DNA of 64,000 bases from Zanthoxylum bungeanum (Eukaryota; Streptophyta; Magnoliopsida; Sapindales; Rutaceae), in NCBI GenBank assembly GCA_019454045.1, contig SKCR01035595.1, positions 1-64,000 on the forward strand, read 5' to 3'. The notes under the pieces were generated by a model, which saw only the letters and a list, made by a program, of their open reading frames with translations, was not told the DNA's origin and made no database searches. Positions 17,767 through 58,257 of the stretch are shown in pieces. The position numbers and the translations under genes are program-made. Each line of letters opens with the position of its first letter. Within the stretch, counting starts at the first letter, position 1.

Positions 17767-17776
17767 CTATTTATAG
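17767..17776 (-). promoter_or_regulatory. LTR TATA box, element A
   Basis: The minus strand reads CTATAAATAG followed by AGGTGCTC, a canonical plant TATA box placed inside the LTR. It would drive transcription of the element leftward. Confidence 0.6.
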
Positions 17777-18020: not shown

Positions 18021-18124
<104 letters not shown>

Positions 18125-24207: not shown

Positions 24208-24969
24208 AAATGGTATTAGAACGAGTCTGATTCTAGGCCCCCTAAAATGATTAGCCTTAACTAAATCAATGTTTAATCATGTTTTCTTGACTTTATACAT
24301 GCTTGTTATAATCTAATTTGATTAGATTTAAGGTGTATGACACTTAGCGGAAAATCCATAATTAATAAGGTTTTAATATAATTATGTATTTGATGCATGT
24401 TATGTGGTCCGTCTTGTCAATACGGTTTATGAATATTTCTCTGTGACTACATCCGAGACCGTGCCTCTGCTGTGAGGGTGTAGCCGATATAGATTTATTT
24501 ATACCGAATGTATATTAGATACTAGATAAATTCAAGCGAAAGCGGAATTCTGAACGTGCCCTGCTGTCCGGATTACGTAAGTAACTAGAGTTTATCATTG
24601 ACGAGTTTAACCTTGGTACGTCTCCTTGTGGGCCTGCCTTCGCAGCGACAATGAGAAACGACCAAGACCGGAAACCCATGAGTCATTAGTGAATGATTGA
24701 CAAAAGAGTTGTCTACCTGATGAATATACGTAAGCGAGACCGTGCATCTGCTGTGAGCTGAAATATATTCACGGGATCCACTTTTCACTATTTGTATTTA
24801 ATTTAATTATTAAATCTTTGCATTCTGTTTGGGGATTACAATATTGCATGATTTAGTGGGAGGGGCATTTTTAGATTAAAAAATCCATGATCTAGTTTAT
24901 GCTTTTGATATTATAGAAACTACTTAATTTCTGCTAACCGTTTTTCGTGATCCATATGATAGATTTGCG
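24208..24969 (+). promoter_or_regulatory. Primer binding site and leader of copia-A
   Basis: TGGTATTAGAACGAGT at 24211 resembles the initiator-tRNA-Met site of copia elements (TGGTATCAGAGC). The rest is untranslated leader. It contains a direct repeat, GAGACCGTGCCTCTGCTGTGAG at about 24451 and GAGACCGTGCATCTGCTGTGAG at about 24738 (one mismatch). Confidence 0.75.
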
Positions 24970-28911: not shown

Positions 28912-28912
28912 A

Positions 28913-28927
28913 GCAAGTGGGAGATTT
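28913..28927 (+). promoter_or_regulatory. Polypurine tract of copia-A
   Basis: The purine-rich GCAAGTGGGAGATTTT directly precedes the 3' LTR, as expected for the plus-strand primer site. Confidence 0.7.
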
Positions 28928-31349: not shown

Positions 31350-33453
31350 ACTATCATGAAAGGCTTTAGTTTCGCTTTAATAATTTTTGCATTCTCATAT
31401 GAATCATTCATTAACTCTTCAAGTTCATTTAATTACAGTTTACGTTCATGACTGACATTTTCAAGTTTAAGTTGAATACTTTAATAGCTCAATACGACTT
31501 ATGCTCAAGTTCTACAGGCAAATGACAAAGTTTTTCTTAAACTAGACGATAGAGAGACATTCCCAAAGACGTTTTGAAAGCTGTTCGATATGTCCAAAGT
31601 GCATCAGTCAGTCGAAGAGACCAATCTTTGCGATTCAGGTTAACCATTTTTTCCAAAGTTTGTTTGATTTCTCTATTTGTTGTTCAACTTGACCATTTGT
31701 CTGAGGGTGATAGGATGTGAAAAATTTTATGTACAATTCCATACTTTTTCATTAAAGACTCAAAAGGCTTGTTACAAAAGTGTTTACCTTCATCATTTAT
31801 AATGGTCCGAGAGATTCCAAATCGACTTAAAATACTTTCTTTTAAAAATTTAATCGCAGTTTTGTGATCATTGTTTCGACCATGAATCGCCTCAACCCAT
31901 TTTGAGACGTAATCAACTGTAACCAAAATATATAAAAATCCAAATGACGGTGGAAATATACCCATGAAATCTATTCCCCAACAATCAAATATTTCGATGA
32001 CCAGAATGTGATTTAAAGACATCATGTTTCTTTTAGAAATGGATCCATACTTTTGACAATTTTCACAAGTTTTGCAGAAAGCATGTGTATCGTTAAATAA
32101 GGTGGGCCAATAAAATCCACACTGTAAGATTTTTATAGCGATTTTTTTTAGACGAGAAGTGACATCTGCATGCTTCTGAACGACAAAACTAAATAACACT
32201 ACTTATCTCATTGTCCGGTATGAATCATCGAAAAATATGATCAGGGCAATACTTGAGCAGATATGGATTGTCCTAGTAGAATCTTTTGACTTCGGTCAAA
32301 AATTTCTTATTATCTTGATGGCTACAGTCTAGATGTATTTTTCCTGTTGTAAGAAAATTGGCAATATTAGCATACCAATGCATTGTATATACATAAAATA
32401 AAAAAATCATCAGGAAAAGAGTCATTGATATGAGTTGTGTCAAATGATGACTCATTTGTTAGACTCGATAAATAATCTGCAACTACATTCTCTGCTAATT
32501 TCTTATCCTTGATTGTGAGATTGAATTATTGAAGTAACAAAATCCACCGTAATAATCCTGGCTTTGCATCCTGTTTAGACATCAAATATTTAACAACAGC
32601 ATGATCAGAATAAACAACGGTTGATGAACCAATAAAATATTATCAAAATTTGTCCAATGCAAATATTACAGCAAATAGTTCTTTTTCTGTGGTAGTGTAA
32701 TTCATTTGTACACTGTTTAAAGTTCTATTTGCGTAATAAATTACATATGGCTTACCTTCCTTTCTTTGTCTTAATATAGTGCCAATTGCGTAATCACTCA
32801 CATCACACATTAGCTTAAAAGGCAAAAACCAATCAAGAGATTACATGATAAGAGAAGAAGTTAAAAGACTGATAATATTTTCAAATGATTTTTGACATTC
32901 TTTGGTTTATTCAAATATTGCATCTTTTAATAGGAGGTTATACAATGATCTGGATATGGTAGTAAAGTTTTTAACGAACCTCCTATAAAATCCTACATGT
33001 CCTACGAAATAATAGAATTCCCTTACTGTTTTTTGTGGTGGCAATTTAGAGATCACCTCTATTTTTTCTTTGTCAACCTCAATACTTTAGATGACACAAC
33101 GTGACCCAAAATAAGTCTTGAATCAGTCATGAAATGGCATTTTTCTCAATTTAACACAAGTCATTTTTCTTTACATCTTTTCAAAATATTTTCCAAATTA
33201 TTCAAGAAATTATCAAATGAGTTCCCAAAAATAGTTTATCATCCATAAGGACCTCTAAATAATGTTCAACCATGTCACTAAATATACTTAACATGAATCG
33301 TTGGAATGTTACCGGTGCATTACAAAGTCCAAATGGTATTTTCCTAAATACAAATGTTCCAAAGGGACATGTGAATGTGGTCTTTTTCCAATCTTTTAAA
33401 GCAATGAAAATTTGATAATAACCTGAGTAACCATCAATAAAGCAATTGTAGGG
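31350..33453 (-). pseudogene. Athila-like pol of element A: reverse transcriptase, RNase H, integrase
   Basis: Read leftward, 33453-32830 gives a Ty3/gypsy reverse transcriptase (FIDGYSGYYQI, TFTCPFGTFVF, FGLCNAPVTFQRFM, EVLMDD at the catalytic site) with later stops. 32825-32643 gives RNase H (KLMCDVSDYAIG, YYANRTLN, TTTEKELFAVIFALDKF). 32199-31684 gives integrase (GFYWPTLFNDTHAF, CENCQKYG, WGIDFMG, VDYVSKWVEA). Beyond that, [18 protein letters not shown] occurs at about 31590-31540. These are the motifs of Athila-group pol. The first part of reverse transcriptase is missing because a copia LTR starts at 33454. The end of integrase continues at 21796 beyond copia-A. Several stops and frameshifts are present. 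Confidence 0.88.
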
Positions 33454-35512: not shown

Positions 35513-36787
35513 TGATCGGTGAAATCACACACGTAACACAATAGCACGTATCGTTCAAGTAATATAAAAATATCGATCACATGCAGACTTAATTTCTACA
35601 GTTATTATTAATTATTGATACTATTTATTTACAGGTATTTAATTAAAGGGAGAAGAGAATGATTGCTTGATTGATTGGTTGAATGTGGATTTGCTAAATA
35701 AATAAATAGATAAATACACAAAACAAAATAATAAATAAAATAAACAAAAAACACAAATAACTAGGGTTGTGATTCCACACAATATTATTCTAATGATGAA
35801 TTGATTCTCTTATATATGTGTAATAAATCAGTTTGCTAACCTGGAACACGAAGATATGCAAAAGCCTCTTCCGATGGTCAGATGCAAACACCCAAAAATA
35901 ACCAAATTAATCATATTCCTATGTTAACCAAGTTATTTGAATTCATTAAGTTCAATTTCTAATTATGGCTACCCGCCCGACAGGTATAGTCCTATCCTGT
36001 AAGAAATCTACATAAGGATCATCTGCCCTAAGGTGAGATCGTGAGCTATTGAATCTAAGGCTAAAACCTAAAATCCCTTTTCCAAGTCCATTTTAAGTTT
36101 ACCAAATCAATCTTATTGGTGATCAGGCAACAAGAAGTATTAAGCTTAAGATTCAATAAACAAACCTAAAGTATTACCCAATATAAAAAGAAAATCAATA
36201 ATTAAACTCATGAATATTGTGTTCATCACTTCCTAGAATAAAAATAAAATAAAATATTGGGGTTAGGGGATCCACCTTTACTATTTCTAATTTAGAAATC
36301 TCCCTTATTATAATATATAAATTACCAGTGATATTACCAACCGACCATATATGCGGTATCCTGATTAAGTCAGATTTTCGATTAAGTCCAACCGACCATA
36401 AAGGCAGTGTTATTATTTGTCCATAAACCAGCCATATAGGCGGTAATAATCTGTCACATAAAGACCGGTAATATAGGCGGTGTCACATTATGTCAAATAA
36501 ATAAAACCAGCCATTAAGGCGGTATCAAATTTAGTCCATATTATTAGATTATAATTTCCATATTATAATTATGGGAGATTAATCTAAACTATAATAAAAG
36601 CTTCACCCTTCCCCCATCGAAAAATAAACTACAAAACATAAAAGAAAGATAAAGAAAATAAACTACTACTATTACTGGAAATAAAAATACATTATTTAAA
36701 TTACAAAACTTAAACACACAAGATACAGTCCTTATATCTTTATTAGAACCTTAAGGAAAGTTCAAAATTGAACATGAAATCGAATTG

Positions 36788-37230: not shown

Positions 37231-37951
37231 TGTACGGGATAAATTTGGGCCAAGGGAAATTTTGACTTTTCGCTTCGGCCCAATACTAAATACACCCCAA
37301 ATTCCCCTAACAGTACCCAAGATAAGATTCAGGCCCTAAGTTACCATCTCAAGCCCACACACTAAGGGAGGGCCCAATATCCTCCAATCTAAAGGACCAC
37401 AGACTCTCAAAGGTAGCCCTATTTTATAAGTCTATATTGGCCCAAAGATATTACGCAAACCCATACCCAGTAAAGATACCATATCTGAACCGTATCCCAG
37501 ACTCAATCATGTGCCATCCCACGAAACGCCCAGACTCATAAATACCCCACATAATTCAACCGTTTCCAGCCTTCAAACGGACAAACAATCAAGAGCAATA
37601 AGTGAGCACGTTTCACATGTGTGTATATATTAGAGGAGAAATCTAAGAGGGGGGACACACAAGCTCTACTACTCATAACTTAATAATATTCACTCCAGAG
37701 CTCCCAGAACCCCCTACCTACCGCCCTCACGGCATCTCACGTGGATCAAGGTAAACTCTGACCTTGGTCCTCCTTCTACGACACTTACAACATATTTCCA
37801 CCACTGACTTGGGCGTCGGAGTTGCTACGGCATACACCACACCGGTGGGTAGATTCTCCACGCTCACTCTACTTCTTGTTTTGCAGGATCGCCAGTGCCC
37901 CCAACCAACAAATTCTCAATTGTGGACCTCGGTCGTAGACCAGTGTCTACA
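37231..37951 (+). repeat. 5' LTR of element D
   Basis: It begins TGTACGGGATAAATTTGGG and ends GTGTCTACA. A TATA box (GTATATATTAG) lies near 37622. It shares nearly all its text with 41170-41862. Confidence 0.85.
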
Positions 37952-37954
37952 ATT

Positions 37955-37973
37955 TGGCCCCCACCATGGGGCT
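37955..37973 (+). promoter_or_regulatory. Primer binding site of element D
   Basis: TGGCCCCCACCATGGGGCT lies 3 nt after the LTR. It resembles the TGGCGCCCACCGTGGGGC-type sites of plant gypsy elements, altered at two or three positions. Confidence 0.6.
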
Positions 37974-38030
37974 CTAACGATTCATAGCAAACAAGCCTTT
38001 CTTCAATCTACGGGACTTGCAAACATAACA

Positions 38031-38330
38031 ATGGCATCGAGCAGCGAGCCTTCGAATCTTCTAGCTAACTAATTTTCCATCCTCCAGGAATGTCTACGGG
38101 TTTTGGAAGAGGAGAATTCAGTCATGAAGAGTTCCAACAGCGACCTCCAAAGGCAATTGGAACATATATCATCCACATCGAGACATAGAGGATTCACAGA
38201 TCCTCCCGATCGACCGGACCGCCAGTCCAACTTGATGGAGACACCAGACAACAAAACGGGCGACATCCCCCCACCCGAAGGTCATCCAAAAAGTCAAGAA
38301 AGGAATCAGCGCATTCCACCGGTCGAACAT
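38031..38330 (+). pseudogene. gag N-terminus of element D, truncated
   Basis: The ATG at 38031 opens MASSSEPSNLLAN followed by TAA (38070). The same frame then continues with LRVLEEENSVMKSSNSDLQ, a coiled-coil-like stretch, and a hydrophilic DPPDRPDRQSN segment rich in P, D and R. This is the usual look of the N-terminal part of Tat-type gag. It is cut by the copia LTR fragment that begins at about 38331. No capsid or zinc-knuckle sequence remains. Confidence 0.6.
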
Positions 38331-40328
38331 GATGGGGCTTTATGGCGGAAATCTGGTAACGCAGCGGAATAGTGGAAAATCAAAATTTTTCGATTTCAAA
38401 CTTTTTTTCGAATCAATTAAATAAACTTACTTATTTAATTATACAATTATCAAATTCTGAAAAATTACACAAGAGATTAAATTTCTTGGTAATTACCGAA
38501 TTGCCCCAAAACTTTGTAAATTGATTATTTTAGCCCAAAAATTATCAAATATAATTTTGGATGATTCTAAATCATTTCTAAAATGTTTTTCAACACATCT
38601 AATGCATAAAAATCAGATTCCACACAAATCCCCAATTTTTGAGTAATTGTCGTGAGCACCCCAAATTTTCAAGTAATTGTATTTTGGTCCATTTTGTTCA
38701 AAACATGCCAAGATCAAATCCAATCAACCCAAAAATTTACATGCATCATATTCATTCCATAATACATCACATAAATGAAAATACCTAAATTTGGAGTGGG
38801 TTATGAATCCTAATTATTCAATTTCAACTAATTGTCCAATTTCACCAAATCATTAAAATCCAACACTTTAATCCATTCAATACTTCACCAATCTAGCCTC
38901 ACCACTTTGAAACAACTCTAGAACAATTCTAGGTCACCAAGGAGTGGCTTACCAACTCTAGAATGGCAACTTGAATTTCCAAAAATTAAAAGTAAAGCTT
39001 TGAAACCATTTCAAGCTCACTTACATGCATCAATCTTTCATCAAAGTTCACCATTAAAACATAAACGTAAGTAAAGATACAACATCAAAGCAACACAAGA
39101 TGAAGCTAAGTATGTTAGAAATATTTTCTATGTTGAAGACTTTAAAGAAAAACTTATAAAAATAAGATTTTTCCAAGCTTTCTTCTTTTGCCTCCAAGCA
39201 TTTTTCTCTCAACTCTATTATGTTTATTTGGTAACTTATGAACCCTTAACCTAATGAAAATTAAACAAAACAATATATACTCCCCAAAATTTCCCTTGGC
39301 CGAAATTGGAAGCAAAAGATTAATATCTAGATATTTTTGTTTCATTTAAAGCTTACTTTATCAACTTGTTAATTTGATCATTACAACTTTAATGAAAATT
39401 CAACAGGTCAACAAAATCAACTCAAGGCATCTCCTAAAATATCAAAACTTATGATATTTATATTTTTAATTCATTTAATTATTTAACAATTAAATAATTA
39501 AATAATTATTTAAATACAAATATTTTAAATATATGTATAATATTTACTTTAAATATCCAAATACATATATATTTATGATATATGTCAAATATCACAATTT
39601 GACATTTAATTAATGTGCATTTAACAAAATCTATCATTAAGTACAAATACACAATAATTAAGAAATTAAAATTAGGTCTCATCACATGTATTTTTCGTTT
39701 AACATTTAAACGATTTATAAATAATCATCATTATTCATAAAAGTTACCCTAGTGCTCTACAAGTATATTTCATTAGTGAGACTCTCTAGATTCAGGTATA
39801 TCCGTCACAAAATTCAATTTCGTGTCCATAATTTACCCACCCGTAAATTATGACGACCACGGATAATCTAGCTGAATCATACAGGTCGAGGTCATTACAT
39901 ACGTATAATCCCTCCGTCACAGGTATCCGGATAATCCCGGAGATATAGATGTAAACGTCAAATCTCTATAGGTATTATATCGTCGACGTTTCTATTAGCA
40001 ATCTATAAATAACATTCGGAACTCACTTCCGAAGTATACTATGTCCATAGATTTAACTGATTGCTAATCAGATATGGACTACCTATGCTTTGTACACAGA
40101 ACTGACGGATCCTATCTTGACACACAGAGAATATCCTGAGGATCGGTCCACACCCAACAAACAGGCGGAGTTCTGATCTAAATAGATCGGTGACGTAACT
40201 GTCATCTAAGTGTGGAGGATGTCTCATACATCTACAGTGGTATCTCAAGTCAAATGACCACTATGCTACTCAACCCAAGAAGATTCTTATTGACGTTGGT
40301 GTACTATCTATTAAGAATCTTTGGTGAA
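38331..40328 (-). mobile_element. Copia-A family LTR fragment inside element D
   Basis: On the minus strand it runs parallel to the copia-A LTR. The shared end is CCGCTGCGTTACC followed outward by AGCCCC; GCAATCAGTTAAATCTATGG, GTCGACGATATAATACC and the long AT-rich middle correspond in order. It lacks the first roughly 400 bp of the LTR, stopping at about 40328 within the text that corresponds to ACTCACCGAAGATTCTTAAT. No internal copia region is attached, so it is a truncated solo-like LTR. Confidence 0.8.
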
Positions 40329-41169
40329 TTATTTCCTGGCCTACATCAGGTCTAGTCGATGGGAACACTCCCCAATTAGTCCATGATGGAGCCAAGTTCA
40401 GTTAAAATGCCTTCCTATGTCCAGCCGACATGTAGATTCGATTTGGTCCCTATTCGCCACCAAATGAGTGAATGGTTTCCCGGCCTTTATCAGGTCCAGT
40501 CGACGGGAACACTCCTCATTTGGCTCGTGGTGGAGACTAGTATAAAACCTTGACCTTCTTATGGTTCAGACAATATGCAGATTCGATTTGGTACATGTTC
40601 GGTACCAAGTGAGCGAGTCGACATGCTCATTCCTCAAGAAGCTCATTAATTGAGTCGGGATATCAACCCGGACCTCTATTTGATTCAAGACGACATGTGA
40701 CCTCACTAAGGCCATGTACCGCACCATTCGGTAGAATAACCTCCATGCCATCATCGGGCGAGTTGAACACTTGAACTACATTCAGTCTAGACATGTAGGC
40801 TTTATTGGTCCTCTGACCAATCGATTGGAGTTCTTCAAAGAACACCACTCAGTTATGTCGACTGGGACATGACTAAACAAATAAAAGACTTGGACTATAT
40901 TCAGTCCAGACATGTAGGCTCCATTGGACCTCAGACCATTCGTATGGATATGTCCAGAAACAACGTCTGATTCGATCGATTGGGGATATCTTCCCTAACT
41001 CATGTCGAGTCAGATTCAAGACTTTAGCCATACTGTCCAGATGACATTGAAGACGCTCAATCACGTCCTGGTCCAGACAACAAAGACTTTCCCATTTTAG
41101 TTCAGACGACACGACCAATGAGTACTCTCAAAGCCAATGACTAATTGACTTAGAGAGTAGGGGACAAAC
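40329..41169 (+). repeat. 3' repeat region and polypurine tract of element D
   Basis: Degenerate direct repeats fill this stretch: CGGCCTTTATCAGGTCCAGTCGACGGGAACACTCC-like text occurs twice (about 40347 and 40490), and TTCAGTCTAGACATGTAGGCT at about 40782 recurs as TTCAGTCCAGACATGTAGGCT at about 40899. Open frames here are not coding. AGAGTAGGGGACAAAC at the end is a plausible polypurine tract. Repeated 3' untranslated regions are known from Tat/Ogre elements. Confidence 0.65.
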
Positions 41170-41862
41170 TGTACGGGCTAAATTTGGGACAAGGGAAATT
41201 TTGACTTTTCGCTTCGGTCCAATACTAAATACACCCCAAATTCCCCTAACAGTACCCAAGATAAGATTCAGGCCCTAAGTTACCATCTAAAGCCCACACA
41301 CAAAGGGATGGCCCAATATCCTCCAATCTAAAGGACCCCGGACTCTCAAAGGTGGCCCAATTTTATAAGTCTATACTGGCCCAAAGATATTACGCAAACC
41401 CATACCCAGTAAAGATACCATATCTGAATCGTATCCCATACTCAATCATGTGCCAGCCTACGAAACGCCCAGACTCATAAATACCCCACATAATTCAACC
41501 GTTTCCAGCCTTCAAACGGACAAACAATCAAAAGCAATAAGTGCGCACGTTTCACAAGTTTGTATATATTAGAGGAGAAATCTAAGAGGGGGGACACACA
41601 AGCTCTACTACTCATAGCTTAAAAATATTCACTCCAGAGCTCTTAGAACCACCTACCTACCGCCCTCACGGCAGCTCACAGGGATCAAGGTAATCTCTGA
41701 CCTTGCTCCTCCTTCTACGACACTTACAGCATATTTCCACCACTGACTTGGGTGTCGGAGTGCCTACGGCATCCACCACACCGGTGGGTAGATTCTCCAC
41801 GCTCAATCTACTTCTTGTTTTGCAGGATCGCTAGTGCCCCCAACCAACAAATTCTCGAATTG
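41170..41862 (+). repeat. 3' LTR of element D, 3' end missing
   Basis: It matches the 5' LTR from TGTACGGG to CCAACCAACAAATTCTC. The last 30 or so bp, including the TCTACA end, are absent and B-type LTR sequence resumes. Confidence 0.8.
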
Positions 41863-42001
41863 CTTCCAGTGGAACCTGAAACCTTATTTATCTACAAAAA
41901 TAATACAAAACACATCAAAACATTCATAAAACCCAAGAAAAACTATACAAAATACTAGGTCAAATGAGTGGGAAATAGTGATATATTTACCATTTATCAC
42001 A
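41863..42001 (-). mobile_element. LTR of element B, right part (start of U3)
   Basis: On the minus strand it starts TGTGATAAATGG at 42001, preceded by the purine-rich GGTTTGAGGG (polypurine tract, 42002-42011). It aligns with the last 200 bp of the element A LTR (GCTTCCA, CAATAAATAA-like text). Together with 35513-37230 it forms the 3' LTR of element B. Confidence 0.72.
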
Positions 42002-42529
42002 CCCTCAAACCTAACATTTTCTAATCCTCGAGCAAAACAACAAAATAACATAAACATCTTTAAAATAATAATTAAACTAATCCATTTTTGTAGGGATCAC
42101 GGTTGCATTTAGCATATGCAACAAGCCTTTAAACCCCTAGGTGTCCCTAGTGGATGAGTTGTAGTCTCGTGAGGGCTTACAGCAATGATACCCACAAACG
42201 CCAATCTAATGCACACAAAAGCAAAAAGACAAGAGAAAATAGAATAACAAGTTAGTGACTAAACATGTGAAACTTCTTATTTAAGTTAGTAGTTATTTTC
42301 TTTCTTTCTAAATTACCAAATAAGTAAATTCTCTGATTATTTTTACCATTCTCCATATACACAACCAACAAAGTATTAATCAGTCATTGTGCCCACAATA
42401 TTGATAAGTGTAGTTGAAAAGAGAGTAATATTTGTGTCCTAAAGTTATATCAGAATTCACATCTTTTTAAGCAATGAAATATTTTTTCAGATTTTTTTTA
42501 ATTTATATACAATATCTTCCATCCATGTA

Positions 42530-43333: not shown

Positions 43334-43987
43334 TTAAAGGTTAAGATCTAGATTTATCCGATGCTTCTTTCCAAGATCATTATCAGACCAGTTTATCTTG
43401 GAAAGAATATGGTCAATTTGTGGTTCAAAGGCTAAGATTTGGTCAATTTAAATCATGGAAAGTTCTGGCAGTGAAGATTATTTCTTTTACAGGTTTTGAC
43501 ACGAATCCATTTCTCCGTGCATCATCAAGAAACACACAAAGAAAATCATAAAATCCATCAGCGTTAAATAGTCCAATTGGTTTCTGGTGTATGTTCAAGT
43601 TCGCCCAAGATAGCATTGTAGAAATTTCATCCATCGTACCCAAGCCACCTGGTAAAGCAATAATAGCATCATCACGATTGATCATTTCAACAAGTCGTTC
43701 GGACATACCTGGCACGATAAGTTCCTCTCCGTTTGATGGTCCTATAAGATTCGCCTCTGCCAAAGGTTTTGGGATGATTCCCAAAACTTGACTACCTTTT
43801 TCCTGTACGGCCCTTGAAACGTACCCCATTAGTCTAAGATTGCCACCGCCATATACTATGTGCATATACTTTCAGCTATGACTCTACCCAATTCTTGTGC
43901 TACTGCAATAAATTATGGTTTAGACCCAGCACTAGTACCATAAAACACACAGATATTTACAACTCGTCTTCTTGAAGTAGCTTCCAA
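43334..43987 (-). pseudogene. Captured LOG-like gene, copy B, better preserved
   Basis: Same family as copy A: a LOG/lysine-decarboxylase-like phosphoribohydrolase. The minus strand shows VVNICVFYGTSAGSKP, a stop (TAA 43914-43912), then VAQELGRVIAES, a frameshift near 43870, and a 140-codon open stretch (43865-43443). That stretch carries HIVYGGGNLRLMGYVSRAV, VLGIIPKPLAEANLIGP, AIIALPGGLGTMDEI, QKPIGLFNADGFYDFL and DDARRNGFVSK. After a frameshift near 43442 the tail PQIDHILSKINWSDND ends at TAA 43336-43334. The PGGxGTxxE nucleotide-binding signature is intact here. At the likely start a TTG (43987) stands where ATG would be expected. Canonical plant LOGs usually show an R-K pair before the EM of this helix; here it is ERLVEM. 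The copy lacks introns and has the element's orientation. Confidence 0.88.
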
Positions 43988-44054: not shown

Positions 44055-44645
44055 CACCCGAAAAGGGTGAGTAATAATAGCACTAGTATCTTCCAATGGA
44101 TGATTATTAGCTTAAATAATAAAATAAATCGTGAAAGGTCAAAAAGTCTGGATCTTGTCGGCGAAAATAAAGATAATTACAACAGCAAAGCAAATCAAAG
44201 CAATTATTAAGGCAACAAAATTGTGTACACAATACGCCACTCGTTTGGTATATAAATCCATTAGGATGTGTATCAAGAATCCATTCCTTACTCAGCCATC
44301 ACTAATGAATTAGCTCTCATATTTGTGATTGCCAAACACCATTCCTATTTTCTTACTTTGCCTTAAATGTCCCGTTTGTGCTTTTCCCTGAAAATATCAC
44401 ACAAAATTAAAAACTCTACAACATGTATAAACAAAATATGAAAACATAAATTCCAATAAATTGCATGGGTTGCTTCCTGCTAGTATTAAATTTTTCATCT
44501 TCAGCGAGACGTGACTGAAATCCATATGTCAAGGAGGTTTTAGCATGGTTTTGGATGTCCGTTTAAAGACAATCCTATGAGCATTTCTTTTGAAGGGTCT
44601 CTTCCAACGGTAAAGTGGCAAAAAGAATTTTGTCTCATTCAGTGT
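44055..44645 (-). other. Element B segment without recognisable gene
   Basis: It lies between the unrecognised frame at 44927-44646 and the LOG-like gene. The part 44141-44345 resembles element A at 20620-21030. No coding signal stands out. Confidence 0.5.
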
Positions 44646-44927
44646 TTATGCCACCTTTTTAAACTTTATCGCTCCTATGGTTTCTGGAAAGAAGGAAAGA
44701 AAATCAAGAGGTCTCGTATGGTGCTTGACTTTGAATAAGAGTTCCATTTTGTCAATCTTCTGGGCGGTGTCTTTGATATGTACTCCCCAAAACAGTGATA
44801 TTTCTCCTAAATGTATGAGATCTTCAATATGGTCAGACATTTGCTCCTCCATTTGCTTTGCATCTTGCTCCACCTTTTCATCACAGATGTATTTTAAAAT
44901 TTTCGCATTCAGCTCTTCATCTGTCAT
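44646..44927 (-). CDS. Unrecognised retroelement frame in element B
   Basis: Ninety-three codons starting MTDEELNAKILKYICDEK, hydrophilic and acidic in the first half and basic at the end (GAIKFKKVA). Reading is open upstream of the Met (about 44985) in the same frame. No domain is recognised. Its position, after gag remnants and before the LOG-like gene, suggests it derives from the gag-pol region or an added sequence. Being open for more than 90 codons in an otherwise broken element is mildly notable. Confidence 0.3.
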   Translation of the reverse strand: MTDEELNAKILKYICDEKVEQDAKQMEEQMSDHIEDLIHLGEISLFWGVHIKDTAQKIDKMELLFKVKHHTRPLDFLSFFPETIGAIKFKKVA

Positions 44928-45039
44928 ATGTGAAATACATGCTCCATAAGTGTCAACTTGAGGATGGAAAGATGTATCTAATTTTAGGTCTTCATCCTCT
45001 GTGGTTGATATGACTGCTCAGGTAGCTCTTCTTCAAACA

Positions 45040-45795
45040 TCAGTGCAATGCATGCTCCAAGATCTTCATTTTTAGGATACAGAGTTTCATCCTTATTTGT
45101 AGTTGGTACAAATGGCTCTGGTTCTTGTTCCTCATCAGAGTTTGATGAATAATAAAATCAAATCGAGATTTTGCTGGTTCGGGCTCCTGAATTGATACCT
45201 CTGGTTCTTGATATTGTTCAGCCTTTTTCTCTGATAATGCGTCATCGTGAAATGCTTGGTACTCGAAGGTTTCGTCAATGTCATTTGAATTTGTTCCGTG
45301 AGATATGTAATTCAGGTTGTTTGTTAATTGTCTAATTTGATTTATCATCCTATGTATGGATGCTGCTTGACTATGAAATTGTGCATCAAATTGAGCTTCC
45401 CGTTCCTCGAGCCAATCTTTGAGCATGTCAATCATCCGATCTTCATCTGATGGTTCTGGTTCTTGATGAAGATCGTAGATGGATGGTGGATAAGATGGAA
45501 AACGTGGTTAAGTGAAATATGATGGTTCTTCGAACTCTGAATGATTCTGATAATTCTGTCACCCTGAAAGGTATATGCATTGATTGCTCGGGTGGTTACC
45601 ATCGTATATTTCACATCTCCCCATTGCGTTCTGTTGAGCAAATGTAGTATTGCTTGGTTCTGACATCCAGTGATAATTGGTGGGCTGGACAACAAGCATC
45701 AGAAAACCGGACTGTTGCTCCCTGATTTGGGGTGTATCTTCTTCTAGTAAAGCTCGTAATCTCTCAATCGCCCAATAATGTTCCATTTCAACCAT
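45040..45795 (-). pseudogene. Athila-like gag remnant of element B
   Basis: The first frame (45795-45559) starts MVEMEHYWAIERLRALLEED and reaches the half zinc-knuckle-like CEIYDGNHPSNQC seen in Athila-type gag. A second frame, 45435-45040, holds WLEEREAQFDAQFHSQAASI and HRMINQIRQLTNNLN, matching the coiled linker that follows the knuckle in Athila gag. Stops separate them. The N-terminal gag is absent. Confidence 0.65.
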
Positions 45796-45920: not shown

Positions 45921-46040
45921 TGATCAGTGAAATCACACCAGTAACGCAAACGCACATATCGCTCAAGTAGTATACTATCGATCCCACGAGGACTTAATTT
46001 CTAGTGTTGTTATTAATTATTGATACTATTTATTTACAGG
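45921..46040 (-). mobile_element. 5' LTR fragment of element B
   Basis: TGATCAGTGAAATCACACCAG through TTTATTTACAGGTA matches the first 120 bp (plus-strand order) of the LTR at 35513. The rest of the LTR is missing and Athila internal sequence follows. Confidence 0.8.
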
Positions 46041-46749
46041 TAAACCGAAAATGGAGTCTGCTACTATTTTACGTCAAGACTTCACTCTTCTATCTAATGT
46101 TGTTATTAAGTATTACAGGAATTTGATTATAATTGTCTGCTACATGCTGTTTTTTCAAGACAATAAAATTCACATGATATATTAATTTATCGACTTGAAA
46201 TAACAAGTCTTCCACAATTCCTTTTGATACCTTGTCTGATCTATCGGCAAGTAAAAAAGTAGTTGAAATTGGTTTTAACTCACAAATTTTATGTTGTTGG
46301 TAAACCGAAAATGGAAGCAAATTGACACTAGCTCCAAAATCAAGCAATGCATGTTCAATTTTATGATTTCTAATAATACGTGAAATAGTTGGACAATGAG
46401 GGTCTTTGTATTTCAATGCATTATTAGTTTAAAGGATGTAACTTACATGTTCAGCTAGAACAACTTTCTTTCTTACCTGATGTCTTCTTTTAACGATGAA
46501 TGAGCCTTCAAAAATTGGCATAAGATGATATCTGTTGGATGGCATTTAAAAAAGGAATATTGACCTTCGCTTGTTTGAATATTTCATATATCTCTAGGGA
46601 ATGGTTTAATTTCTTTGTTTTCAATGCTTGAGGAAATGGAGGTGCATATGACAAATCGTTATCATCAACGATAGGTAATGGTTCATCAACCCCTTACTTA
46701 CCCTTTGAAGCGGAAACCTTCACGAGGTTTAAGAAGGTTTTTGGATGAC
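46041..46749 (-). pseudogene. Athila-like protease region fragment (element E)
   Basis: The minus strand 46416-46090 encodes MKYKDPHCPTISRIIRNHK, ALLDFGASVNLLPFSVYQQH, FLLADRSDKVSKGIVEDLL and NFIVLKK, the retropepsin of Athila-group elements (usual D-L-G-A-S motif, here DFGAS). Just upstream, HQVRKKVVLAEHV occurs before a stop. The conserved ILGRPF end is altered. A phrase of about 14 bp, GTAAACCGAAAATGGA, occurs twice (46037 and 46303). The fragment continues beyond the solo LTR at 49314. Confidence 0.8.
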
Positions 46750-46754
46750 CTTAC

Positions 46755-49308
46755 TGTTAGGATTTTATGGAGGAATATCGGTAACGCAGCGGAAACGCGG
46801 GTCGGGGCAGAAATCGTATTTCAAAAAAAAACTTTTTCAAAATACCGAGTAAATTATTCAATATCTAATATAAATAATCTATTCAGATTTCACCTAAACC
46901 CAAAAACATTACTCACATTCATGATCCGATCAGAAGAAGTAATAATCTGACCACAAAAGGCCCATGGTCCGAGCACATGAAGCCATGGTCCGACCACATG
47001 AGGTCACGATCCAACCACATGAGGTCATTCCGACCACATGGGGTCATGATCTGACCAAACTAGGTCCTACCAGACTAGAGACGACCATAAGAGGTCCGAC
47101 CAAACTAGGGCCGACCAGACGAGGTCCGACCAGACGAGGTCCGACCAGACGAGATCCGACCAGACCAGGTCCGACCAGACTAGGGCCGACCAGACGAGAT
47201 CCGACCAGACCAGGTCCGACCAGACTATGGCCGACCAGACGAGATCCGACCAGACCAGGTCCGACCGGACGTGGTCCGACCAGACCAGGGTCAACCCGAC
47301 GAGTATTTTACATGCATCATATACACATCCAAATACACAACATAAATGAAAAGCCCGAAGGTGGGAGAAGGTCTAAAAACTTAATTTATTAGACAAAATT
47401 AATTAAATCCAACACTTCAATCAAGTTTCTTAAACACAAAAAAAGCCTCACCACAATGAAATAACTATAGAACAATTCTAGGTCATTTAAGAGTGGGTCA
47501 ATAACTCTAGAATGGCAACAAGTTTCTCAAAACATCAAAAGAATGCTTATAAACACATTATTACATTCTATGATCTTTATACATGCTCAACCTTATCCAA
47601 AACTTCCATCCTCCAAAAATACAAAGAATAAAGAATAGAAAAACATAAGAACATCACAAGATGAAGCCCACAACAAGAGGAACATTTTTCTCTCTAATGG
47701 TAAGTTGGAAATACTTACTAGATTCCAAGCTTTTCTTTGTTTTTGCTTTTCTTTCTCTCAAGCTTCTTTGTCTTCCTTTTAATGGAGTTTTTGGATGAGA
47801 TTTTGCTTAATGAAAATATCCAACACTTTTGCTATTTTCTAGCTTGGCCGAATTCAACAACAAGAGAAAATATTAATATTTTTCATTTTATTTCAATCAA
47901 GCCAACTTGGCCACTTGCTTTTGAAATCATTAACTCATTAATGAATTTCTTAAAGTCAAGTATATCATCTTTATGTCATCTCAATGATTATCATAACTTT
48001 AATACATTTATATTTTAATTAAATTAATCATTTAATAATTAATTGATTATTTAATTATTAAAATACAAATATATTAAATATATGTATTAAATTTACAATA
48101 AATATCAAATACATATATATTTATGATATAAATCAAATATCTCAATTTGACAATTAATTAATGTGTATTTCATAAAATCTAACATTAAATGCAAATACAC
48201 AAAAATTAGGAAATGACTATTAGGTCCCAACGCATGTATTTTCCGTTTAACCTTTAAACGACTTATAAATAATCAGTATTATTTATAAATGTTGCCCTAG
48301 TGCTCTACGAGTATATTTCATTAGAAAGACTCTCTAGATTCAGGTACAAAATCCAATTTTCTGTCCATAATTTACCCACCCGTAAATTATGATGACCACA
48401 GATAAACTAGTTGAATCATACAGGTCGAGGTCATTGCATACGTATAATCCCTCCGTCACAGGTATCCGGATAATCCTAGAGATATAGATGTAAACGTCAA
48501 ATCTCTATAGGTATTATCCCGTCGACGTATCTATTAGCAATCTATAAATAACATTCGGAACTGATTCCGAAGTATACTATGGCCATAGATTTAACTGATT
48601 GCTAATCACATATGGACTACCTATGCTCTGTACACAGAACTGACGGATCATATCTTGACACACACAAGATATCATGAGGATCGGTCCACACCCAACGAAC
48701 AGGCGGAGGTCTGATCTAAATAGATCGGTGACGTGACTGCCATCTAAGTGTGGATGATGTCTCATACATCTACAGTGGTATCTCAAGTCGAATGACCACT
48801 ATGCTACTCAACCCGAGAAGATTCTTATTGATGTTGGTGTACCATCCATTAAGAATCTTCGGTGAGTCGTTCAGTGTTTATCCACTATAAACACCTACAC
48901 GTCTATACTAATCTCCCCAAACTCATGGTTCATTGGGATAAACATCGGACCAAGTCTCGATATACGACATGTACTGGTCTCAACCGGATTTGACTAACCG
49001 ACCCGTGTTAGTGAATCTTGACCAGGAACTATATTTAAAAATATACATTTAGGAGTGACATTTCCCAATGTCAATTACAAACTACCGTTGTAACTGTGTA
49101 CTGCATTATATATTATCGGGCATTTGTCTAATATATACATATCACTAAACAACATTTAGTCTCAATCTAATCGTAATCAGATCGAATACGTATATAAAAA
49201 AAAGAGGTGCAACCATAAATAAGTAATATTATGGAAAATTGGATGTTTATATTCATGAATCAGACATAAATACGGTCCGGATTGGCACTCTGAGCACCGA
49301 CCCCAACA
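46755..49308 (-). mobile_element. Solo LTR of the copia-A family with target duplication
   Basis: On the minus strand it starts TGTTGGGGTCGGTGCTCAGA (49308) and ends TAAAATCCTAACA (46755). The middle matches the copia-A LTRs in order. The 5-bp target duplication CTTAC flanks it (46750-46754 and 49309-49313). No internal region is present, so it arose by recombination between two LTRs. It interrupts Athila-like fragment E. Confidence 0.93.
46960..47300. repeat. Minisatellite, about 15-bp unit, inside the solo LTR
   Basis: Tandem copies of GTCCGACCAGACGAG and variants (CAGACCAG, CAGACTAG, GGCCGACC), about 15-20 units, most regular at 47090-47295. Frames on both strands (Thr-Arg-Arg-Gly-Pro type and Val-Trp-Ser-Asp type) are a by-product. 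The array is absent from the other copia-A LTRs in the window. Confidence 0.88.
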
Positions 49309-49670: not shown

Positions 49671-50439
49671 TTTAGAAAGTGATGATTTTTAAAGCATGAT
49701 TTTGATGATTTTCTGGAGGTATGGGGGAAAAACTCACCTCAATTGTAACTTGGTACATATATTGGAATTGACGGTTACTGGAATTGACGGATTCAGAGCA
49801 TCTGCATATATAGAGCATGACTAGGGGGACGACGATACATAACGCCCCTAGATCCTAGATTTCAGGGCTAGGGGGATGGCGAGACGTAACGCCCCTAGAC
49901 TCTAGATTCAAAGTCGAGATGATAGCATTGATCCACATATTGGGCTCTAATTTAGTGACTTGGGGGATGGCGAGACGTAACACCCCAAGACCACTAGTTA
50001 GACGTATGAGGGGACGGCGAGACATAACGCCTTCATACATCAAGTCTTTCATAGACAGATTTTTAGAGATGAGATTTTCAGAGATATGGTTTTTCATAAA
50101 CGATAAGTTTTATGAAAGAGTTTTCCAGAGGATTCAGTTTTATAGATAGTAATTTAGAATTTTTCAGAAAGAAAAGTTTCCAGAAAGAGAACTGTTTTCA
50201 TATAAGAAAGAATTTTCAAAAAGATCAGATTTCTTTGAGATGATTTTGATTTCAGTAAAATGAATGTTTCATAAAGTATTTCAGTTTTTCGTCTTTAAAT
50301 TATCCACTCAAAGGTCGTTTAAAACGATCTAACCCATATACTCCCAGTTTTTCTATTTTGCAGGTTTACCCGGAGTACGAGCTCGGAAGGATGGATACTG
50401 ATTGTAGTCACTAGGGTGTATGGATTTACCAGGTCGTAC
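49671..50439. repeat. Unclassified repeat-bearing DNA left of element C
   Basis: The motif GGGGATGGCGAGACGTAACGCCCC and degenerate forms occur four times (about 49829, 49873, 49963, 50013). The arrangement suggests LTR or leader DNA of an old retroelement into which element C inserted. No coding region is recognised. Confidence 0.5.
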
Positions 50440-52355
50440 TGTAGGCATTGCATTTTTACACATTAGCCCAATGATGAGTCTCGTATGGAGGCAACTACTT
50501 CTTTAGTCATGAAAGTCGCGGGAAACGGACGTTGGAAGGGTAAAGTTGGAAAATAGAATTTTCGATGGATTTAATCTCCTTGTTTTCCGCTTCGGTTGCT
50601 AGTTATACCTCCGTTTCTAAGCTCACCTTAGGCCCAAAACTCCCATAGACCACATACCTAACCCAACCAAGCCCAAATACCCAAGTCAACCCAAGTCAAA
50701 CCAAGTCAAACCAAATCCATGCCCAAAGGATGTAATTCACGCCCAAAGCCCATTTATTTAGGTACATGCATATTATCACATGTTTAAATCTTGTAAATCC
50801 TTACCTAAATAAAAGAAATCAAATCAAATCCCTACCAAATCAAATCCAATCCCAAATCCTAATTAGGAGATGCATTCCTTATTAGAAATCAATTAGGAGA
50901 TTCCTTCCTAATCTAATAGGAAAGCCATCACCCTTTGCCTATAAAAAGAGGCCTTCACCCCCATTCACAACCCTAGCACACATACTTCCCTTGACGTCCC
51001 AAACACTTTCTCAAGCCTCCTTGCACCTCCAAAAACCTCCTTGAAGCCTCCATTGCCGAATCATAAACCTAAGCACCCTCCATTGCCGCATCTTTCATCC
51101 TTCACCAACACCCTTCACGCCTAAGCCCCTTTCACTACCCTCCATTGCCGAATTTTAGCCACCATTCACAGCCCTAAAACACACCAAAAATAAGCCTCAA
51201 ATAAAGCCCTAAAGTCGCACTAAACACTCTCCAAACACAGCCCCATTCGCAGCCCCAAAACAGTCCCCAAAAACGCCCCCACTGCACCTTGAACTGCCGC
51301 ATCTTCACCTTATGTTCTGGTCCGTTTTGGCTGCGACTTTAGCCAGAAAACAGCCCTAAAATCACCTAGAACCATCCCAAAAACCTCCATAAAGTTTCCC
51401 TAAAAAATCCCCACAAACGCACCTCCCTAAGCCTTCAAAATCACCCAAAACAGTCCGCTAAACCATCAAGACAGTGACCTGAAACGTAGAAGCGAGCAGC
51501 AGCGAAACGGACTTGAAAAACAGCAGCCCGAGCAGCAAAACAGCGAGGAAAGATGTGGAGTTGGTGAACTAAAAGAGTAGCGGATCATTCACCCTTCCAA
51601 CGGACGTGTAACGCCTTTTCTTAGACGACAAAAGAGGTTAGACCTGAGGGCACCTTTCTACTTATCTTCTTTATTGTTGTTTTATTTATTTTGATATATA
51701 ATGGCATGAGAGTCGTTTGAAGCATGATGTGATTGTTGGGTGAGCGGGATATGTGTTCCCTTTTGTGGTATATCGGATGGAAACCCGGACGTAAATTCCA
51801 TAGCCGATTCCGAATGGACGGTAGTATGGTCTGCACTCGGGATACAATGCCACATACCACTTAAGATACACGTATCTCGTCTCATCCAAATTTGTATTTG
51901 AGCATGTTATAGTCTTTAGGTTATATGTTTATTATTTAAAGCATGGTTTAATTTAGTTTGTTATTTATTTGTTAAAGCATGTTTAGGTTGTCCATTATGC
52001 ATGTTCTTAGTTTATGATGCGTTGGGTAATGATTTATACATGTGATTCAATGGTTCAATATGCTTGTTGTGTTACATTGCGTGAAAATTATTTGGATGAA
52101 AGCATGTTAGATCTAAGTACCCTTGAGCATGATTATTGAGTAGACTTGGTTAGTTCATTGCACAATTATATCATCACAAGTGACATAAGTAAGGGACCAT
52201 TCCGAACCCAACGGTTTGAGGTCTTCCCTTGCGAGGGGTGAGTGCGGCCTTAAATCTTTGTCCCGGTTCACACCGGGTGGCGACTCCATGTTATTTCATA
52301 CTTCCCAACTAGGCCACGAGCCTAGAAAAGCGTCGCCCAGGTTCTGTTGTCTACA
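50440..52355 (+). repeat. 5' LTR of element C
   Basis: It begins TGTAGGCATTGC and ends TTGTCTACA. The TATA box TATAAAAAG is at 50940-50948. The 3' half shows CCTCCATTGCCG-type repeats (about 51040-51160). Confidence 0.95.
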
Positions 52356-52376: not shown

Positions 52377-53309
52377 TATAGAGAATCGGCCCGAAATCAT
52401 GTCTTGTGATGTGTATAATTTGTGCATTAGTTGACCATTTCTATAGTGGGTTGAGGGGGTTAATCAAAGGCTTTGTTGAAGCTAGGTGATGGTTGGGTGT
52501 CTTCCTTCACTCACTACCCTTCGGGGAAAAGCTGTGAAGACACCCAGATAAATCATTACTTGTAGCTCGTTGTGACATACTAGTTTGGAGGACTCGTTGT
52601 TTATTCCTGACACCAAGCGATAAGAGCCTAAGGGGCTTGGGTACTTAAGAGAGCCTCGCTCCACCCTTCCCTCTGGGGAATCTACAACGGGAAATCCATT
52701 CGACAGTTAGTCACACACTGTAACTCGTTGGCACGTACCGTAAGGTATAAAAAAATGGTGCACTCACTTGGTCGCTTGAACCCTTGAGTGGGGAGTCCTA
52801 GTTGTGGGTAATCCTTCGTCAAAGAGAGCCTTTGTCCACACTCCGTGAACCCACTTGTGAAACTTAGCCTTGAAAGAACCGGTGGTTAGTTATTTATTTT
52901 ATGTTTGTGTGTTGGACCGCCGTCATTTGGATCCAGTTGGACCTTTTGTCAAAAGATGTGACTTGTTGGGCCATTTAAACTGGGGCAAGTTTGTGTCATT
53001 TGACAGTTGGGCCAAAAAGCTTCTAAAATGCCAGTGGGCCACTTTGTGAATGGGCCTTTTATCATTTGAAGTCATTTAGCCATATCATTGTAAAGTGTAA
53101 ACCTGTTGGGCCTTTTCAACTGGGACAAGTTTGCACCGCGCGATGGTGTGATAAATACTTTAAAATGATAATGGGCCAAGTAGTTTAAAGTTTCTTTTTT
53201 TTATCTATTACATGCATCGCATGCATCTCATGCATCTCATGCATACATGCATCATGTTACCCTTGTGTCTAAAAGCCATCATGGATACCCGTTGGGTTAG
53301 AAAAAAAGA
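52377..53309 (+). other. Leader of element C, no coding region
   Basis: Untranslated leader text with repeated phrases such as GTTGGGCC and ACTGGG(G/A)CAAGTTT (52960 and 53120), and CATGCATC repeats near 53210-53250. It joins directly to reverse transcriptase/RNase H coding text at about 53290-53310, which marks the internal deletion. Confidence 0.65.
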
Positions 53310-53900
53310 AAGAAGTCAGAGCATTCCTTGGGAAAATCCAGTATATCACTCGGTTCATTGCAAACTTGACGTCAGTGTGTGAACCTATCTTCAAGCTGTT
53401 GAGGAAAGACCAGCCAGTAAAATGGAACGAACAGTGTCAGGAAGCATTTGACAGAATAAGGGAATATTTGGTGAAACCTCCCGTCCTGAGACCTCCGAAA
53501 CAGGGCAGACCTTTGGTGCTTTATTTGGCTATTGAACCCGAAGCGCTGGGGGCGATGATGGTACAAGCCGATGAGATAGGAGTAGAGCACGCCATCTAAT
53601 ACCTCAGTAAGAAGCTGCTTCCGTACGAAGCCCGCTATCAAGAAGTAGAGAAGATTTGTCTAGCAGTAGTATGGGTGTCCAGGAAATTACGCCACTATTT
53701 CCAGTCTTACAAGATCCAAGTAGTCGCAAATGAGAATCCTTTGAAGTATCTACATTCGGTGCCTTCACTAGTTGGAAAGCTGGGCAGATGGTTAGTACTG
53801 TTGACTGAATTTGACATCGAGTACCTCACTTCAAAGGTAATCAAAGGGTGAGCCGTGGCAGAATTCTTAGCCTTACAACCTGTTGAAGGGGATCAGTACA
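53310..53900 (+). pseudogene. Element C: end of reverse transcriptase and first RNase H
   Basis: The text encodes YITRFIANLTSVCEPIFKLL, WNEQCQEAFDRIREYL, PLVLYLAIEPEALGAMMVQ, then after TAA 53597-53599 YLSKKLLPYEARYQEVEKI and YFQSYKIQV, the connection and RNase H domain of Ty3/gypsy elements. A further TGA occurs near 53849. The catalytic polymerase part is missing. Confidence 0.85.
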
Positions 53901-53939
53901 AGTTTGAATTCCCCGACGAAGAAATCCAAGCTATAGCAG

Positions 53940-54349
53940 TCCAAGGATGGAAGATGTATTTTGACGGAGCAGTGAACTGCAAATGAGCCGGAATCGGTAT
54001 TGTAATAGTAACCCCTGGGGGAGAGACTTTGCCTATGGCCAAGAGGTTGACGTTCAGGGTAACTAACAATATGGCTGAGTATGAAGCATGTGCATTCGGC
54101 TTGAGTGCATTAATAGCCTTGAGAGCTACGAACGTGGATGTTTACGGAGATTCAATGTTGGTGATCCGACAGATGCAAGGAGAATGGGAGTTAAAAGAAG
54201 AACGGTTGAAGCCGTACTTATTCCACCTCAGAAACCTAGCACATCTTATCCCTAACTGCAAATTTCAGCACTTGCCTCGGGAAGAAAATCAGATGGCAGA
54301 TGCATTGGCAACGCTAGCCGCAACCGGGAGAATCCAGAGAAATTGGTGA
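53940..54349 (+). pseudogene. Element C: additional (archaeal-type) RNase H domain
   Basis: GWKMYFDGAVNCK, a TGA, then AGIGIVIVTPGGE, FRVTNNMAEYEACAFGLSAL, VYGDSMLVIRQMQGEW and HLPREENQMADALATLA. These are the D-E-D-D pattern residues of the second RNase H that distinguishes the Tat lineage. The frame from 54029 to the stop at 54347-54349 is open. Confidence 0.88.
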
Positions 54350-54429
54350 TGAGACCACTTGTGTTGACAACGGCCAGCAGCAAACCGGTTTATGAGATAG
54401 AGAGGTCTCGGGGAGTAGAGGTCGATGAC

Positions 54430-55680
54430 GAGAACGTGGTATTATGACATCCAGAGGTACCTGGAACATGGGAATACCCAGAGGAAGCGAGCAGAAAAGA
54501 CAGAATCGTCATTCAGAAGTTGGCTGCTCAACATGTGAGTCTGAAAGGAGAACTCAACAAAATGCAAGCGAACGGTGTTCAGCTGAAATGCTTGAGAAAG
54601 GAAGAAGCTCAGAAGATAATAGATGAAGTGCATGCTGGCGTTTGTGGACCACATATGAACGGATTGAACTTGTCCCGCAAGATTGTGAGACAAGGCTTTT
54701 ACTGGTCAACCATGGAAGCCGACTGCGCGAAGCTGGTAAGGCACTGTCATGATTGTCAAGCGCACGGGAATTTGAATCATTTGCCGCATACAGAATTGCA
54801 CGGGTTGTCAGAACCGTGGCCTTTCTCAGCATGGGGAATTGATATGATCGGAGAGATTCGGGCCGAATGCGTCAAACGGACATCGCTTTATAGTGGTAGC
54901 AGTGGACTACTTCTCGAAATGGGTAGAAGCCGAGTCATTCCGTAATGTCACGGCAAAACAAATGGCTAAGTTCATATCCCGAAATCTCATATGCCGGTAC
55001 GGTATGCCGCATCACGTGGTTACGGACAATGGAGTCCAGTTTCAGGGAGAGACCAAGGCGATGTTACAGAGGTATGGGATAGGTCATCATAAGTCTTCAC
55101 CATACAGACCGCAGGCTAATGGAGCAGTTGAGGCAGCCAACAAGACAATAAAGACGATTCTGGCGAAGATGACGGAGAATTACAAAGACTGGGCTGATAA
55201 GCTGTCGTATGCCTTGTGGGGATACAGAACTTCTGTAAGGACAGCAACTGGAGCTACGCCTTACTCTTTAGTCTACGGAATGAAGCGGTATTGCCGGTGG
55301 AAGTTGAGATACAGTCCATGCGGGTGTTAGCAGAATCAGAATTGCCTGAACGAGAATGGACCTCGCAGAGGTTTGAGCAGTTAGCATTGATGGATGAGAA
55401 GAGGATGAAGTCCTTGCATCACATGCAGATATATCAGAAGAGGTTGGCCCGAGCATTTAATAAGAAGGTGCGTCCTACCAAGATCAAGAAAGGTGATCTG
55501 GTACTTAAGCAGTCGAAGCCGTCGACGACAGACCCAATAGGGAAGTTCAGACCAAATTGGGAAGGACCATACATTGTTCAGAAGGTAATGGGAAATGGAG
55601 TAGTGAGACTGTCGGACTTGGAAGGGAATGAGTTCACCGAGCCGATCAATGTTGACAGATTGAAGTTGTATTTTTGCTGA
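54430..55680 (+). pseudogene. Element C integrase, two frameshifts
   Basis: The zinc-binding HHCC region reads HAGVCGPHMNG, GFYWSTMEADCAKLV, CHDCQAHG. The catalytic core has WGIDMIGEI, VTDNGVQFQGETKAML and NGAVEAANKTIKTI, so the three acidic residues are present. The C-terminus has KKVRPTKIKKGDLVL and NWEGPYIVQKVMGNGVVRL and ends with TGA at 55678-55680. Frameshifts lie between about 54860 and 54893 and near 55285. This is one of the better preserved pol parts in the window. Confidence 0.9.
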
Positions 55681-58244: not shown

Positions 58245-58257
58245 AAGTGGGGGCGAC
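58245..58257 (+). promoter_or_regulatory. Polypurine tract of element C
   Basis: AAAGTGGGGGCGAC directly precedes the 3' LTR. Confidence 0.75.

Follow-up and report, generated by a model that had tools for sequence, protein, structure and literature searches.

A 64,000-nucleotide stretch of Zanthoxylum bungeanum DNA, referred to here as the window, contains a broken LOG gene within the remains of an LTR retrotransposon. The explanation that we favor, to which we assign a probability of about 0.8, is that members of an Athila-like family have an accessory gene for a LOG-type phosphoribohydrolase, placed after the rest of the element and before the 3′ LTR, that the frame of this gene has been selected, and that its putative role is directed at the host. 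In gag-pol-type copies, LOG lies right behind an ORF for a cysteine-rich nucleic-acid-binding protein (CRP), and a compact form in which no gag, RNase H, integrase, or CRP is seen keeps LOG. As part of the same explanation, the element around the window LOG gene is probably a decayed copy, of the compact type, of this high-copy Athila-like LTR retrotransposon.

Two LOG copies in the window

The first-pass annotation had reported an intron-free LOG gene at positions 43334–43987, and alignment with open copies defines this as the exact span of such a coding sequence on the minus strand, comprising 217 codons and a stop (654 nt). Within it, an open frame of 140 codons (43443–43865, minus strand) matches both the Pfam family PF03641 (E = 2.8e-33) and Arabidopsis LOG3 (PDB 2a33; E = 2.9e-37). 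The presence of a LOG gene therefore stands, but the gene is broken at this location: the coding sequence begins with TTG, has a stop at codon 25, and contains two single-base indels, one an insertion and one a deletion, that shift the frame. The window LOG copy is a pseudogene.

The surrounding element runs from right to left, with all of its own features on the minus strand. Its 5′ LTR is represented by a remnant of the 3′ end, truncated by other sequence (45921–46042), followed by a primer-binding site, read from 45914 to 45898, with 0 mismatches to TGGCGCCGTTGCCGGGG. We take this site to be of the tRNA-Asp type, as the first-pass annotation did. Beyond it are a remnant of the ORF1 found in compact elements (44529–45666; 80% in a BLAST comparison of the L015b ORF1 with the window), LOG itself, the polypurine tract GGTTTGAGGGTG (42000–42011), for which a similar sequence is present at the same place in L021, and the start of the 3′ LTR (TGATAAATGG...; 41875–41999), which is split by nested insertions. 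The remainder of the 3′ LTR lies past these insertions at 35513–36372 (17629–18488 in oriented coordinates), and an insertion inside this LTR, at 37231–41862 with no strand assigned, has a direct repeat of 693 bp (94.7%) at its borders. The primer site, polypurine tract, and LTR pieces around LOG support the earlier proposal that the gene lies in sense orientation within an Athila-like element, at the env-like position. Both this element and its closest match, L002, have the compact layout.

Several other repeats populate the same region. Those at 38.3–40.3 kb and 47.3–49.0 kb were considered as LTRs of the LOG element and rejected, as they belong to another repeat family that is also present at 21.8–24.2 kb and 28.9–31.3 kb. 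This LTR-like family of approximately 2 kb has four copies (38333–40333, 47307–49030, 21802–24203, and 28928–31339), the first two of which could be mistaken for LTRs of the LOG element. Protease-like frames at 46255–46666 (minus strand) are similar to positions 7277–7879 of L011; since they lie outside the LOG element, to the right of its 5′ LTR remnant, they are probably part of a different element. At 46964–47392, a 15-bp unit repeated in tandem produces a long open frame of repetitive sequence on the plus strand. Farther along, a direct repeat of about 1.9 kb (50438–52355 and 58256–60170, 97.9% identical) probably represents the LTRs of a young element, and RNase H- and integrase-like frames lie between its two copies at 53300–55276 (plus strand).

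The window also contains a CRP ORF and a second LOG copy, neither of which appeared in the first-pass annotation. This older LOG copy (19823–20470, minus strand) is interrupted by stops and frameshifts and lies 23 kb from the other copy in the same orientation. Its CRP ORF (20801–21346, minus strand), which is Carla_C4/Viral_NABP-like, has 182 codons with no indel and two in-frame stops. On the same strand are an integrase-like frame (31453–32010), 55% to the L017 integrase that itself matches PF00665, and an RNase H-like piece (32655–33005), 50% to an L017 query with that domain; a nested LTR element (21802–31339, no strand assigned, direct repeats 94%) separates the integrase from CRP. Because their order and strand agree, the RNase H, integrase, CRP, and LOG pieces from 33005 to 19823 probably constitute one element.

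Copy number, mobility, and layouts of the carriers

The genome searched comprises 3.956 Gb in 51,709 contigs. With the window LOG DNA as the query, the best 40 of 11,116 candidates, among them the window copy itself, each show 90% identity or more across at least 649 of the 654 bases. With the 217-residue homologue P0002 as the query, the best 150 of 70,454 loose candidates all cover at least 215 of the 217 residues, and a hand count finds 125 of these 150 to be without stops, an open fraction that is biased upward because the matches are the best rows of longer lists. Two sets of copies were compared: set A, consisting of 20 copies picked by protein similarity, and set B, consisting of 32 copies picked by DNA, among them that of the window. 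Of the 32 DNA-picked copies, 8 have no internal stop or gap (with the start and final codon outside this judgment), the other 24 being broken. In set B, 7 of 35 rows share an in-frame stop at codon 64 and 4 of 35 share one at codon 98; these recurrent stops may stem from decayed CGA codons or from descent of a sublineage that was already dead. Pieces of matK were also observed, with 35 matches in many contigs (e.g., contig C40003, 160561–161558; L069). The best of them, a broken copy, is closest to Zanthoxylum (86% over 63% of the query) and to other Rutaceae.

Ten LOG copies were examined with 20 kb of sequence each. LTR pairs flank six LOG copies (L009, L011, L021, L027, L023b, and L015b), where L023b and L015b denote further LOG copies found inside the stretches of L023 and L015 besides the centered ones. 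Together with the at least 40 close copies, these pairs bear out the first-pass annotation's view of the gene as part of a mobile family. In L019, the repeat pair is shorter (410 bases), and an LTR pair was not established within the 20-kb stretches for L013, L017, L025, or the centered copies of L015 and L023. Target-site duplications of 5 bp are present in two of the three copies checked (TCTAC in L021 and ATGGA in L023b), with none seen in the third, L009. The K2P distances between LTRs are 0.066 for L021, 0.093 for L009, 0.066 for L011, and 0.074 for L027 (partial LTRs except in L021), and 0.017 and 0.013 for L023b and L015b, respectively. Ages at an alternative rate of 1.3e-8 would be one third of those at 3.92e-9. 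At the latter rate per site per year, taken from PMC8417289, copies with distances of 0.066–0.093 would be approximately 8–12 My old, and L023b and L015b approximately 2 My old. A tRNA-Asp-type primer site with at most three mismatches lies beside the LTR end in L011, L019, L021, L023, L023b, L015b, and L027; no site of the TGGCGCCGTTGCCGGGG type was found in the L013, L017, and L025 stretches, and the sole match in L009 belongs to another element.

The order of the gag-pol-type element, pieced together from several copies, is gag (PF03732), a protease-like region, RNase H, integrase (PF00665), CRP, approximately 270 nt, and LOG, with no single examined copy extending from gag to LOG with both RNase H and integrase. 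The protease-like region has no Pfam match. L019 covers gag through CRP to the end of its 20-kb stretch, L017 and L025 have RNase H, integrase, CRP, and LOG, and L013 has integrase, CRP, and LOG. The remaining copies of this type (L009, L011, L021, L023, and L027) retain gag, CRP, and LOG but lack RNase H and all, or nearly all, of the integrase. The compact type consists of ORF1 and LOG, yields no match to gag, protease, RNase H, integrase, or CRP queries, and is presumably non-autonomous. The ORF1 of L015b (1490–2644, oriented) encodes 385 amino acids with a CxxCxxxHxxxxC zinc-knuckle-like motif and an acidic middle part. Its dN/dS is about 0.58 with L023b and 0.72 with the window, and shifted frames give similar values, with no sign of selection on ORF1.

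CRP immediately precedes LOG in 8 of the 10 centered copies, in three of four further DNA-picked copies (L004, L005, and L008, not L002), and in 5 of 10 protein-picked copies; among the five protein-picked copies without it, three match the compact L023b along all 950 upstream bases and two along part of them. The carriers have an extra sense ORF between pol and the 3′ LTR and, in the window and the copies named above, a tRNA-Asp-type primer site after the 5′ LTR, and by these features and their gag, RNase H, and integrase domains they are classed as Athila-like.

Selection on LOG and features of the encoded proteins

That element-borne copies might be under purifying selection, as raised in the first-pass annotation, is borne out by dN/dS values of 0.317 in set B and 0.152 in set A, the latter being biased low because picking by protein similarity lowers dN. 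Shifted frames give 0.590 and 0.885 in set B and 0.959 and 1.957 in set A. When the sets are pooled, dN/dS declines from 0.773 at dS below 0.05 to 0.139 at dS of 0.6–1.0, and the L015b LOG lineage, at dS of about 1.2, has a value of 0.18. For six copies taken as compact, LOG dN/dS is 0.144 (15 pairs), and for five young CRP-type copies only 0.376 (10 pairs, dS 0.007–0.142). Among variants confined to a single copy in set B, 58 of 215 are synonymous, a share in line with the 25.7% that a simple neutral model predicts, versus 50 of the 111 variants common to at least three copies (Fisher p = 0.0012). The corresponding counts in set A are 49 of 127 private and 90 of 134 shared variants, the private ones exceeding the neutral level as expected from how this set was picked. 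In set B, private variants thus look neutral and shared ones do not, and the LOG frame has therefore been under selection during replication, with neutral decay after insertion.

Element LOG genes have diversified into two lineages within the Z. bungeanum genome, separated by dS of about 1.2. The compact elements L015b and L023b share 84% identity along 5 kb, with identity of 0.70–0.75 across LOG and mostly 0.80–0.95 on either side; likewise, L015b differs from other copies by dS of about 1.2 in LOG and 0.22 in ORF1. The drop confined to LOG in this one pair suggests that LOG versions were exchanged between elements by recombination. In a core tree, element LOGs fall in a clade of 24 sequences (support 0.94) that excludes two Arabidopsis cores and three outgroup rows. 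Capture of a host mRNA, as proposed in the first-pass annotation, may be the origin of the gene. Host LOG exons were not isolated with the Arabidopsis LOG3 core as the query, for which the best 150 matches are 53–57% identical, 149 of them without a stop and the list overlapping the best 150 of P0002, nor with a 60-residue piece, for which the best 150 matches are 60–69% identical; element copies probably outrank host exons in both lists. In viral contigs, LOG relatives are distant (35 loci, the best at 40% over residues 12–163 and one at 59% over 29 residues).

The predicted structure of P0002 (pLDDT 86.5) has LOG3 as its best match, with TM-scores against 2a33_B of 0.95 by target and 0.76 by query length. 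The element protein combines a PF03641 match above cut-off, the LOG fold, and a PGGxGTxxE motif with the catalytic Arg and Glu, which together mark LOG phosphoribohydrolases. PMC4979012 assigns catalytic roles to Arg99 and Glu122, the phosphate site to Thr119, and a proposed prenyl pocket to Met96, His97, Lys100, Glu125, and Trp129. Arg99 is kept in 20 of 20 set A rows and 28 of 35 set B rows, Glu122 in 19 of 20 and 32 of 35, and Thr119 in 18 of 20 and 26 of 35, where set B includes broken copies. Within the proposed pocket, Met96 is kept in 55 of 55 rows and Trp129 in 53 of 55, and the other three residues are replaced in all 55: His97 by Ser (once Pro), Lys100 by Leu (once Ile), and Glu125 by Ile or Thr. 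All five canonical pocket residues are present in three homologues (P0034, P0036, and P0039). The first-pass annotation's view of the product as a cytokinin-activating enzyme is made uncertain by the replacement of three of the five pocket residues, even though the catalytic residues are mostly kept. At the C terminus, an LxLxL sequence ends 18 of 20 set A rows, 33 of 35 set B rows, and 15 of 19 non-outgroup homologues (alignment A2), on a tail modeled with low confidence (pLDDT ~43–45 in P0002) that is probably disordered. This sequence has the form of the EAR repression motif and is a candidate for one; to our knowledge, Arabidopsis LOG3 lacks such a tail.

By profile, CRP is classed as a carlavirus-type cysteine-rich nucleic-acid-binding ORF. 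The L011 protein scores 30.6 bits for PF01623 (Carla_C4; cut-off 20.9) and 22.8 for PF05515 (Viral_NABP; cut-off 23), that of L009 scores 25.3 and 33.8 for these families, and that of L017 passes for PF05515 (26.3) and fails for PF01623 (13.1). A protein search returned 288 CRP relatives, the best 120 of which all bear PF01623, and among the matches listed, annotated relatives come from Xanthoceras, Acer, Rhamnella, Populus, and Orobanche. In P0211, a gene model of Orobanche gracilis, CRP is followed by LOG (PF01623, PF05515, and PF03641). For each of the CRP/LOG pairs P0125/P0043 and P0122/P0038, the two members have contigs that agree in length and source, which suggests a single contig per pair. 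Over 20 sequences, CRP dN/dS is 0.434, against 0.785 and 0.892 in shifted frames. Its predicted structure is poor (pLDDT 53), and none of 64 pattern matches to CRP in viral contigs was confirmed.

Alternative explanations and known systems

Under the favored explanation, LOG and CRP would act on the host cell to the benefit of the element. Our best guess is that CRP would blunt RNA silencing or change host transcription, that LOG would alter the levels of cytokinin or adenine nucleotides in dividing cells that can pass new insertions on to the germ line, and that the LxLxL tail may recruit a co-repressor. A bolder proposal, advanced tentatively and at less than even odds, is that an Athila-type clade widespread in eudicots carries a two-gene host-manipulation cassette, formed by a silencing-suppressor-like CRP and an EAR-tailed, LOG-derived nucleotide enzyme, with both frames selected and LOG exchanged and retained in compact forms, and that this cassette alters host hormone or nucleotide signaling.

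The proximity and shared orientation of the two window copies could be explained if a host LOG gene had been duplicated, in tandem or segmentally, and retroelements had then inserted into it. The many close copies, LTR pairs, primer sites, and target-site duplications oppose this origin, and the LTR-flanked LOG copies with target-site duplications rule out a tandem duplication of a host gene, so that we assign it a negligible probability. Alternatively, the captured LOG could be a passenger carried without benefit, its conservation resulting from bursts from few source copies. High copy number, the existence of some young copies (LTR K2P 0.013–0.017), the large share of broken copies in the DNA-picked set, and the common stop at codon 64 are all compatible with such a history. 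It is nevertheless improbable, because a passenger would be expected to lose its frame over the divergence at which dN/dS falls as low as 0.14, and at which the L015b lineage has its low ratio, and shared variants show a synonymous excess in both sets.

Two further readings concern what the protein does. Element LOG might hydrolyze AMP or an immunity nucleotide signal in place of cytokinin nucleotides, a change of substrate consistent with the retention of the catalytic Arg and Glu in most rows and the uniform replacement at the His97, Lys100, and Glu125 positions. Against this, Met96 and Trp129 are kept, and the pocket changes could also mean weak or lost activity, given that alanine at the AMP-binding and catalytic residues of CgLOG, save Ser19, nearly abolished activity (PMC4979012). 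We regard the change of substrate as somewhat less likely than not. Rather more doubtful is that the LOG fold serves as a scaffold, the selected function residing in a C-terminal basic stretch and in the LxLxL tail, which would recruit a TOPLESS-type co-repressor; the prevalence of this motif on a probably disordered tail agrees with such an adaptor, yet the catalytic residues are conserved too, and short motifs are weak evidence.

Host LOG genes number 9 in Arabidopsis, 7 in Prunus, and 13 in Populus according to PMC3866579, compared with 125 and 149 stop-free stretches in the two overlapping best-150 lists obtained here. Should these proteins be produced, one retrotransposon family would hold a great many copies of a gene for a hormone- or nucleotide-metabolizing enzyme, in many cases next to a gene for a protein of viral type. 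Element LOG copies may be miscounted as host LOG genes by automatic annotation, and with the CRP/LOG cassette one could test directly whether accessory genes of plant LTR elements are used against host silencing or development.

Athila-like elements with similarity to LOGL4 were reportedly described by Steinbauerova et al. in 2011. Athila4 and Calypso have in common with the Zanthoxylum elements the type of primer site, gag, RNase H, integrase, and an extra sense ORF on the 3′ side; their extra ORF encodes an env-like protein, whereas the Zanthoxylum elements have CRP and LOG instead. Arabidopsis LOG3 (PDB 2a33) shares its fold, PGGxGTxxE motif, and catalytic Arg and Glu with the element LOG, which differs in being intron-free and element-borne, in its replaced His97, Lys100, and Glu125 positions, and in its LxLxL tail. 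The carlavirus nucleic-acid-binding protein (PF01623/PF05515) has a basic stretch and cysteine motif in common with CRP, some copies of which pass the cut-off, but CRP is a 182-residue, retrotransposon-encoded protein with relatives in several eudicot genomes.

The first-pass annotation knew of no described example of a mobile family that spreads such genes, a statement that does not hold, as LOG domains in Ty3/gypsy elements have already been published (PMC9289625). For Citrus sinensis, C. clementina, and Populus trichocarpa, that paper reports Ty3/gypsy consensus sequences that contain YgdH, the domain typical of LONELY GUY proteins, where the LOG domain is an extra ORF as it is here, and it cites Steinbauerova 2011. 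It also describes Ty3/gypsy elements of orchids that carry an m6A RNA demethylase domain and so likewise keep an extra enzyme domain, the enzyme being a different one. The term "carla" is absent from the text of PMC9289625, and no paper on CRP beside LOG in elements was found in the open-licence literature. To the published description, the analysis of the Zanthoxylum elements adds a CRP ORF before LOG, evidence of selection, compact carriers, and an altered pocket and tail.
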